In this document: piece by piece, positions 28,004-29,525 of the stretch
Layout: every line of letters starts with the position of its first letter
How positions within the stretch are numbered: the stretch's first letter is position 1
Virus record (IMG/VR): IMGVR_UViG_3300020411_001248
Location: 1 to 30,438 of that record
Reading direction: 5' to 3' (one strand)
Length of the DNA: 30,438 nucleotides
From: a virus
Notes under the pieces: model-generated
Database searches by the model: none
What the model was told of the DNA's origin: nothing
Seen by the model: the letters and a program-made list of their open reading frames with translations, nothing else
Program-made: the position numbers and the translations under genes

Positions 28004-28011
28004 TATTTATA
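28004..28011 (-). promoter_or_regulatory. T4-type late promoter for the giant fibre gene
   Basis: The minus strand reads a perfect TATAAATA, the late-promoter element of T4-like phages recognised by the phage late sigma factor (gp55 type). It lies 37 nt before the ATG of the giant gene, a usual distance. No -35 box is needed for this class. The gene order downstream (giant protein, three collar fibres, chaperone) is fully structural, as expected for late expression. Confidence 0.8.
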
Positions 28012-28035
28012 CCAGTAAATCCCTTAACATGACTT

Positions 28036-28071
28036 CGGTTCTAAAATTTTAATTACTATGGATTTGAACCG
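28036..28071. repeat. weak inverted repeat after the oxygenase gene
   Basis: CGGTTC and GAACCG (6 bp) enclose 24 nt that include the palindrome TAAAATTTTA. It lies just downstream of the oxygenase stop and before the late promoter. It may reduce read-through from the upstream operon, but the stem is short and the loop long, so the call is tentative. Confidence 0.3.
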
Positions 28072-28581
28072 TTAATCACCCCATATTTGTATCGTATATC
28101 TAAAATCTGGTGTATCTGGAGAAACAGAAGTAACCAAATGTGGTTCTGAATTGTCATTTACTACCATAGAATTAAACTCTGGTAATATGGCCTTATAAAT
28201 TCCAGATCTTTCTGTACCTTGATCTGCCCATATAAACCATCCTCCAGCATTGGGATGCCAGTCTTGATTCAAATAAATTGTAGCACCAAATATATGATGT
28301 TCATCATCGTGAATAGCGATACCAGAATTAGGTTGCCAAATATAATATTGTGACATTATTTTGGTATGTTCTGGTACATATCTTCTAATTTCACGTTGTA
28401 TTTCTAGGTTTAAATCATGCGGAACAAGAGATGTTAAGCAACTACCATTTAACCCCTGCTTCAAATGTGGCTTCCATATCATATTACTGGAAGACCAACA
28501 TTGCTGAGGTATCATTTCATTTAAACTATCTAAACAATCGTCAAGTAATTCTCGACTTAAGACGTTATATGCTATTTTCAT
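28072..28581 (-). CDS. 2OG-Fe(II) oxygenase (prolyl-hydroxylase-like, 169 aa)
   Basis: This is a likely Fe(II)- and 2-oxoglutarate-dependent dioxygenase of the type frequent in T4-like cyanophages. The double-stranded beta-helix core has the metal triad in order: His91 and Asp93 (AIHDDEHH), then His148 (SEPHLVTSV), with Arg161 (FRYTIQIW) placed to bind the 2-oxoglutarate carboxylate. The strand ATIYLNQDW and the GGWFIWAD segment between them fit the family. At 169 residues it is a minimal enzyme. The substrate is unknown; a peptide or protein side chain is possible. The ATG lies 4 nt after the mature 3' end of tRNA-Thr, leaving no room for a separate ribosome-binding site, so translation probably needs the unprocessed transcript or starts leaderless after tRNA cleavage. 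It is the last gene of its operon. Confidence 0.85.
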   Translation of the reverse strand: MKIAYNVLSRELLDDCLDSLNEMIPQQCWSSSNMIWKPHLKQGLNGSCLTSLVPHDLNLEIQREIRRYVPEHTKIMSQYYIWQPNSGIAIHDDEHHIFGATIYLNQDWHPNAGGWFIWADQGTERSGIYKAILPEFNSMVVNDNSEPHLVTSVSPDTPDFRYTIQIWGD

Positions 28582-28585
28582 AATA

Positions 28586-28657
28586 TGCCATCAGAGGGAT
28601 TTGAACCCCCGACCTTGGCTTTACAAAAGCCCTGCACTACCACTGTGCTATGATGGC
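28586..28657 (-). tRNA. tRNA-Thr (anticodon UGU)
   Basis: The minus strand folds into a full cloverleaf: acceptor GCCATCA with TGATGGC (7 perfect pairs), D arm GCAC-loop-GTGC, anticodon loop TTTGTAA with anticodon TGT, a 5-nt variable loop and T arm GGGGG-TTCAAAT-CCCTC. The discriminator base is A and CCA is not encoded, so it must be added after transcription. The outermost anticodon-stem pair is a G-A mismatch. It should read ACA (and ACG) threonine codons. It lies inside a protein-coding operon, overlapping the end of the HNH gene by 10 nt. Confidence 0.93.
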
Positions 28658-29001
28658 AATAAGATAAGTTCTGGTAAATCGACATAACCGTGATTAAGTA
28701 ATCTGTGACAATTTGCACATAAGGGAGCACACTTATCTATCTCATCTTTGAGTTTAGCATAAGATGCGATAGATTGCAACTGAGATATAGTAGATATCTT
28801 GGAAGCAGGATCTATATGATGAAGTTCCATAACTTCCACTGGATACTGCTTATTGCATATAACACATGGATGAGACTTGGCCTCATCCACCATCTGTTTT
28901 CTCCTCCTATGACCAACTTGATTCTTTCTCTTTGTCTTCCCGTTTTTTCTAGCCCACTCTCTTTGATATTTTCTGTTTGCTTCCTTGTCTTTAATTGGCA
29001 T
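28648..29001 (-). CDS. HNH endonuclease-like protein (117 aa)
   Basis: The protein has the small HNH nuclease layout: a basic N-terminus (KEANRKYQREWARKN), a zinc knuckle Cys46-x-x-Cys49 (CVICN), the catalytic motif ELHHID with His61, His62 and Asp64, and a second knuckle Cys95-x-x-Cys98-His99 (CANCHRLLNHG). In the family this beta-beta-alpha-metal site cuts DNA. In T4-like phages free-standing HNH genes are often homing endonucleases, and one next to a tRNA gene fits that pattern. GAGG at 29013-29010 lies 8 nt before the ATG. The gene starts 2 nt after the cpeT stop. Its last three codons and TAG stop lie inside the tRNA-Thr gene. The target is unknown; a non-homing role in DNA packaging or repair cannot be excluded. 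Confidence 0.85.
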   Translation of the reverse strand: MPIKDKEANRKYQREWARKNGKTKRKNQVGHRRRKQMVDEAKSHPCVICNKQYPVEVMELHHIDPASKISTISQLQSIASYAKLKDEIDKCAPLCANCHRLLNHGYVDLPELILLPS

Positions 29002-29003
29002 TA

Positions 29004-29525
29004 CTATTGCCTCACAAATTTAAGATACCCGTATTCAGAACCCCAGACTCTCTGGTTTGTATTTACATCCTTACCTGTATCTAGTATATGTAACTCATTC
29101 TCATCTAATCTTATTTGATTAATGATATAAGTTTTCTTTCCACCCCAATCAACATAACACTTACATCCTTCTGTGCCACCCTCATATCTATTGTGTCCTA
29201 CCTTTCTAAAAACTAAATCACAATGCTCACGGAATCTTAAATGTTCGTCTGTTATCTCTTCTACATTAGCACCATTACAATATCTCTCAGGAGTCTTAAT
29301 GATCTCGTGATTCTTTGTACGAAAAGTACCATTATCTTCAACTATATCAATGACATACTGTAAATAAGGTCTCTGCCTCATATAATTATATGCCTGTTCA
29401 CCATAATATCTATTCTCACTAATTTTTTTGTATGTCACCCAAATATGAGCATAGCGTGTTGGATGACACTGTGCTTGTGTTTTATTTGAGAAGACACCCT
29501 CTAATAATGATAAGAATTCGTTCAC
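29004..29525 (-). CDS. cpeT: CpeT-type phycobilin lyase-like protein
   Basis: This is a phage member of the CpcT/CpeT family, which attaches bilin chromophores to, or chaperones them onto, phycobiliprotein beta subunits (T-type lyases). Family landmarks in order: GVFSNKTQAQCHP (10-22), YAHIWVTYK (25-33), YYGEQAYNY, RPYLQYVIDIVED, RYCNGA, HCDLVF, GTEGCKCYVDW, KKTYIINQ, LDTGKD and VWGSEYGYLKF. At 173 residues it is slightly shorter than cyanobacterial homologues (about 200). It starts with GTG at 29525, which overlaps the TGA stop of the psbN-like gene (GTGA) and places the family's N-terminus correctly. With ho1 in the same window it points to phage intervention in bilin or phycoerythrin metabolism. 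Activity on a host protein is not shown. Confidence 0.9.
   Translation of the reverse strand: MNEFLSLLEGVFSNKTQAQCHPTRYAHIWVTYKKISENRYYGEQAYNYMRQRPYLQYVIDIVEDNGTFRTKNHEIIKTPERYCNGANVEEITDEHLRFREHCDLVFRKVGHNRYEGGTEGCKCYVDWGGKKTYIINQIRLDENELHILDTGKDVNTNQRVWGSEYGYLKFVRQ

Follow-up and report, generated by a model that had tools for sequence, protein, structure and literature searches.

A small HNH endonuclease gene ends inside the tRNA gene that follows it in the window, i.e. the whole 30,438-nucleotide stretch of viral DNA analysed here, and takes its stop codon from bases U8-A9-G10 of that tRNA. With a probability of roughly 0.7, we read this arrangement as a docked shared-stop junction, in which a small HNH gene is set flush with the tRNA 5' end and takes U8-A9-G10 of the tRNA as its stop. 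Directly observed parts of this model are the overlap, which is conserved and recurs in front of many different tRNA isotypes, its excess in HNH genes, and one occupied/empty pair of sites. Recurring across unrelated phages, the overlap is a common way to dock a probably mobile gene at a tRNA and not a quirk of one genome.

The HNH gene and its stop within tRNA-Thr

The window is part of the genome of a T4-like marine cyanophage and carries CpeT, PsbN-like and cyanophage OMP genes as well as an ORF of 6139 aa. The latter is a single reading frame (27966-9547, minus strand) with many repeated segments, which in relatives is annotated as short tail fibre. On the minus strand, a CpeT-like gene (29004..29525) is followed by the HNH ORF (28648..29001, 117 aa), whose ATG lies 2 nt after the CpeT TAG, then, with an overlap of 10 nt, by tRNA-Thr(UGU) without encoded CCA (28586..28657, found by both ARAGORN and Rfam), and finally by a 2OG-Fe(II) oxygenase gene (28072..28581), whose ATG is 4 nt beyond the 3' end of the tRNA (28581-28586, minus strand). 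Given this short distance and the missing CCA, processing of the tRNA 3' end would leave a nearly leaderless oxygenase message.

The segment common to HNH and tRNA-Thr, GCCATCATAG (28648..28657, minus strand), comprises tRNA bases 1-10, of which U8-A9-G10 form the HNH stop codon TAG (28648..28650). The 3' end of the gene reads TTA TT/G CCA TCA TAG, the slash marking the tRNA 5' end; the last three codons are hence TTG CCA TCA, of which the tRNA covers all except the first two bases of TTG, and the C-terminal residues Leu-Pro-Ser are encoded by the tRNA. No further in-frame stop occurs in the HNH ORF upstream of the tRNA TAG. The length of 10 nt is counted from the 7-bp acceptor stem and the Rfam boundary (28657-28586, 68.9 bits), while ARAGORN places tRNA-Thr(TGT) at 28658-28585 with one more pair at the base of the stem, in which case the overlap would be 11. 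An earlier note on this DNA had claimed that the HNH frame enters the tRNA-Thr acceptor stem and stops at U8-A9-G10, and by the ORF listing and the Rfam boundary this is exact. The HNH 3' end together with the tRNA folds into a cloverleaf-like tRNA, the whole stretch being not unusually stable (z -0.87).

The HNH domain (PF01844) scores 21.9 bits, just over the Pfam cutoff of 21.4, and the protein carries the conserved pattern C-x2-C ... HHxD ... C-x3-C-x-N-C-H, the motif of an HNH (beta-beta-alpha-metal) nuclease. A profile of the protein gave only weak matches to solved structures (best E 0.025), and Pfam returned HNH families and weak sub-cutoff matches with no GIY-YIG among them. Compared with its homologues on three other contigs (L040, L071 and L049), the gene has a dN/dS of ~0.11, indicating strong purifying selection, with dN 0.09 and dS 0.78 for L040 and a saturated dS for L071 and L049. 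At such a ratio, enough HNH message must be translated, and the protein, full-length or nearly so, appears to be made and used. The reading frame also contains an 11-pair hairpin (28890-28866, minus strand), which was reported as terminator-like, with a weak T tail.

Recurrence among HNH relatives and other phage genes

tRNAs have seven acceptor bases followed, in nearly all of them, by U8, and A9-G10 is frequent in phage tRNAs. A 7-base acceptor strand with U8-A9-G10 therefore means that most phage tRNAs give a stop in the same frame, and a frame that has tRNA base 1 in third codon position is bound to end there. TAA and TGA at these bases work equally as stops; among 48 cases ending exactly 10 nt into the tRNA (+10), we found TAG in 43, TAA in 4 and TGA in 1. 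In phage sets +10 is the commonest overlap length, and it accounts for about half of the tRNA-entering HNH genes, with other in-frame stops at +15, +18 and +22; since these occur too, flush placement matters more than positions 8-10.

Cultured phages of Synechococcus, Pseudomonas, Erwinia, Mycobacterium and Rhodococcus have the 10-nt overlap between gene and tRNA too, as do many IMG/VR contigs, in front of tRNAs for Thr, Gly, Asn, Lys, Met, Leu, Ile, Val, Pro, Phe, Ser and Pyl. Annotated HNH genes with exactly this overlap precede tRNA-Asn in S-WAM2, tRNA-Gly in S-RIM50, tRNA-Thr in Pseudomonas KIL1, tRNA-Lys in Erwinia Hena1, tRNA-Met in Mycobacterium Phabba and tRNA-Phe in Rhodococcus Francesca, and Felix O1 has one HNH gene with a 7-nt tRNA overlap and another with none. 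Phabba also contains a second small gene of unknown function (L455, 5480-5665) that overlaps tRNA-Lys by exactly 10 nt. In S-H38 (L458, about 1960-2270), an HNH gene at +10 has its stop at bases 8-10 of tRNA-Asn and is absent from the public annotation, which may have come about because overlaps between CDS and tRNA are disallowed.

The junction extends to genes of other kinds. CpeT overlaps tRNA-Asp by exactly 10 nt in S-RSM4, S-WAM2 and, as called by ARAGORN, ACG-2014e, and tRNA-Thr in S-CAM4; cyanophage 2OG oxygenase genes and a tryptophan-halogenase-like gene have the same junction. Its use by CpeT and oxygenase genes speaks for the overlap being something other than a nuclease-specific control.

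The earlier note had proposed a comparison with related phages, and here the overlap is kept in close HNH orthologues from IMG/VR (L039, L040, L056, L060, L067, L073-L079) as well as recurring in unrelated phages. It had also named, as evidence against its reading, relatives with an HNH stop of their own and no conserved overlap. Such relatives exist in the more distant homologues of S-RSM4, S-WAM2, L295 and L296, which have their own TAG near the same residue and no tRNA at the 3' end, whereas the close orthologues retain the overlap. Because these own-stop homologues have no tRNA, the overlap seems to be a trait of the tRNA-docked copies and not of the whole HNH protein family. No tRNA lies just downstream in 110 of 169 HNH relatives. 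The last conserved HNH residues mostly lie 17-47 nt (often 29) 5' of the tRNA, and an HNH tree, weakly resolved, implies minimum changes of 36 for tRNA isotype and 16 for the +10 state. That tRNAs are interchangeable at the junction is shown by a set of closely related HNH genes (L046 and L297, whose proteins are 82% identical, with L071 and L049 clustering with them), which precede tRNA-Leu, tRNA-Met and tRNA-Thr. The L297 gene ends TTA CCA TCC TAA just 5' of tRNA-Met, resembling the tRNA-Thr junction TTG CCA TCA TAG, and this end may be the scar of a tRNA-Thr junction.

We counted genes that end no more than 60 nt from a tRNA start, using ORFs of at least 80 aa (at least 60 for HNH), deduplicated and filtered for longer overlapping ORFs. 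In this set, whose rows are phylogenetically not fully independent and whose HNH relatives are enriched for +10 because the search profiles were seeded partly with +10 cases, 23 of 41 HNH genes run into the tRNA compared with 15 of 92 other phage genes (p=6.7e-6), and exactly +10 is found in 13 of 41 versus 5 of 92 (p=1.2e-4). On bacterial control contigs 0 of 11 genes run into the tRNA, a small control in which ten bacterial genomes contributed one gene near a tRNA.

Possible roles of insertion, compaction and RNA processing

How might such junctions arise? In the docking model, the HNH gene most probably encodes a free-standing homing endonuclease and sits flush against the tRNA 5' end without a stop of its own. 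As tRNAs with U8-A9-G10 give a stop at the same distance and in the same frame, deletion or swap of a tRNA, or a new invasion, would leave the upstream gene unbroken. A case of this kind is seen with CpeT, which in ACG-2014e is followed by tRNA-Asp and tRNA-Thr; S-CAM4 is without the whole tRNA-Asp unit, and there tRNA-Thr supplies the stop of CpeT with the frame unchanged.

Evidence for insertion comes from S-RSM4 and S-WAM2. In S-RSM4, a short hairpin spacer lies between tRNA-Ala and tRNA-Asn (tRNA-Ala...GCGAACA-TA-tRNA-Asn). S-WAM2 shares this spacer as far as GCGAACA, after which come a late-promoter motif in an inverted repeat, an HNH gene and tRNA-Asn. The two are thus an occupied/empty pair whose right insertion edge is tRNA-Asn itself, the inserted HNH being a distant relative of the one in the window. 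On contig L009, CpeT itself ends on the tRNA-Thr TAG, whereas the window has a CpeT with a separate TAG and an HNH gene ending on that of the tRNA; L009 is therefore a suggestive candidate for the empty counterpart of the window site, its CpeT being only 49% identical. HNH genes flush at tRNA 5' ends are probably homing endonucleases, and we infer both that the window HNH homes and that its target would include tRNA-flanking DNA.

The motif ATAAATA within an inverted repeat lies directly upstream of 12 of 51 tRNA-linked HNH genes, compared with 0 of 110 HNH genes without tRNA and 23 of 2040 other genes, counts that take no account of relatedness and in which several of the 12 come from one tRNA-Gly lineage. 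This late-promoter arrangement 5' of tRNA-linked HNH genes was noted on L386, L397, L309, L436, L365, L375, L377, L390, L423, L348, L137, L083 and L458. No such arrangement lies upstream of the HNH gene in the window; CpeT ends 2 nt before that gene, whose expression may rely on translation coming in from CpeT.

A different hairpin, GGTTCAAATC...TAGAACC, lies between the last gene and the late-promoter motif TATAAATA 5' of the giant fibre gene (28004-28070, minus strand); it resembles a tRNA T-arm and is also conserved in L082, L083, L295, L296, L080 and L071. In S-RSM4, S-WAM2, L295 and L296, an HNH homologue ends flush with it. We do not use GGTTCAAATC after the S-RSM4 and S-WAM2 HNH genes as proof of a decayed tRNA, the same hairpin being found 5' of the fibre gene without HNH.

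Could the overlap result from genome compaction alone? DNA preceding a tRNA would then erode until the upstream gene loses its stop, and bases 8-10, as the first stop in one of three frames, would act as an absorbing state, with no mobility or regulation involved. This is possible, if on the doubtful side. Non-HNH genes show the overlap too, with +10 the commonest length, and in a marine tRNA-Thr set, selected with a tRNA pattern of which the TAG is part, 12 of 18 non-HNH genes end at +10, as do 7 of 7 HNH genes. However, compaction leaves unexplained the 3-4-fold HNH excess, the HNH insertion in S-WAM2, which is clean at the edge of the tRNA, and the left end of these HNH genes with its hairpin and late promoter.

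The other alternative, which takes up the earlier note, is that the overlap is a selected regulatory switch, in which RNase P removes the HNH stop, yielding non-stop messages and tmRNA-tagged protein, so that tRNA maturation limits the nuclease. Part of this holds. The RNase P cut predicted from the tRNA 5' end, between 28658 and 28657 (minus strand), lies 5' of the stop, which ends 10 nt on, and would leave a message ending ...UUA UU without a stop. Our sigma-70 scan, which leaves room for other promoter types, gave no promoter-like site on the minus strand from the HNH start down to the tRNA; the late-promoter motif TATAAATA has no copy there either, its sole copy (28004-28011) lying before the fibre gene. 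With no nearby minus-strand promoter, co-transcription is likely, and HNH and tRNA-Thr would share one transcript. The over-representation of HNH genes among the overlaps also fits a switch, as does the repression of T4 homing endonucleases by RNA processing and structure (PMC2988022). What lacks support is a brake specific to a nuclease, as CpeT, 2OG oxygenase and tryptophan-halogenase-like genes share the junction and damping would have no obvious use there; its presence on metabolic genes argues for a junction that is tolerated, not one made to restrain a nuclease. HNH relatives, moreover, vary among overlap, own stop and gap. We therefore judge a selected switch unlikely. Hardly conceivable is a spurious ORF end falling by chance in the tRNA: although many phage tRNAs have TAG at bases 8-10, where random frames stop as well, and several short ORFs of the census look like artefacts, we rejected this on account of the HNH domain, the dN/dS of ~0.11, the conserved overlap in orthologues and the recurrence in unrelated phages.

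Returning to the docked junction, each RNA shared by gene and tRNA would have one of two fates, either full translation of HNH before the cut, or a mature tRNA and a non-stop HNH message. A ribosome terminating at tRNA bases 8-10 would, judging from the anatomy and general knowledge of RNase P, hold the acceptor stem open. In our view this would lower HNH output, as a by-product of the packing and not as the function it serves. A wider proposal, which we regard as somewhat unlikely, is a widespread tRNA-specialised family of phage HNH enzymes that would recognise the DNA of the tRNA 5' region, insert flush with base 1 without own stop, rely on U8-A9-G10 and move in frame between isotypes and phages, with RNase P maturation setting the amount of nuclease.

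Known systems and biological meaning

Mitochondria reportedly use a "tRNA punctuation", said to go back to Ojala et al. 1981, in which the ends of mRNAs are set by cutting out the tRNAs. Their stop codons are completed by poly(A), whereas the phage stop is part of the tRNA and is not completable after the cut. A poly(A)-completed stop was rejected for the phage junctions, as in none of the 48 +10 cases is the tRNA preceded by TA and a one-base remnant is impossible in this frame. In the open-licence PMC literature, a CDS stop inside a tRNA appeared mostly in mitochondrial papers and in none on phages, and we did not find the recurrent shared-stop junction described there, although free-standing HNH genes in phage tRNA arrays are already known.

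Such arrays, in mycobacteria and mycobacteriophages (PMC5966550, PMC6409571) and in the tRNA region of Felix O1, resemble our locus in having small HNH genes between tRNA genes, and in the available parts of these two papers the HNH genes are suspected of moving tRNA genes along with them; a gene end inside the tRNA with a stop at bases 8-10, as present here, is not described in those parts. T4 SegB is likewise encoded between tRNA genes and has the tRNA region as its target, but is a GIY-YIG enzyme, unlike the HNH gene of the window (PMC2988022). Homing endonuclease genes of T4 often overlap a neighbour and are repressed by RNA processing and hairpins; a hairpin hides the ribosome site, and a late promoter is positioned such that late transcripts escape (PMC2988022). 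In T4, however, the overlap is with the upstream protein gene and processing is by RNase E (PMC2988022), whereas here the overlap is with the downstream tRNA; a device similar to the hairpin and late promoter occurs in the 12 of 51 tRNA-linked HNH genes mentioned above and is lacking at the window HNH. Finally, phage attachment sites in tRNAs and tRNA-dependent lysogeny (PMC10865867) also involve tRNA genes as landing sites for mobile DNA, but there an integrase acts at a site that usually lies in the 3' half of the tRNA. Our junction is at the 5' edge with an HNH gene; it covers bases 1-10, the neighbouring genes considered here are those of CpeT, HNH and 2OG oxygenase, with no integrase among them, and it does not classify as an attachment site on these grounds.

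From the shared stop one would expect tRNA maturation to compete with translation of the same RNA. The overlap may also explain why genes such as the unannotated S-H38 HNH are overlooked where annotation forbids overlaps of CDS and tRNA. It also suggests a reason for HNH genes filling phage tRNA arrays, in that tRNA genes would have a second job at the level of DNA, providing a frame-fixed stop codon for the genes in front of them.
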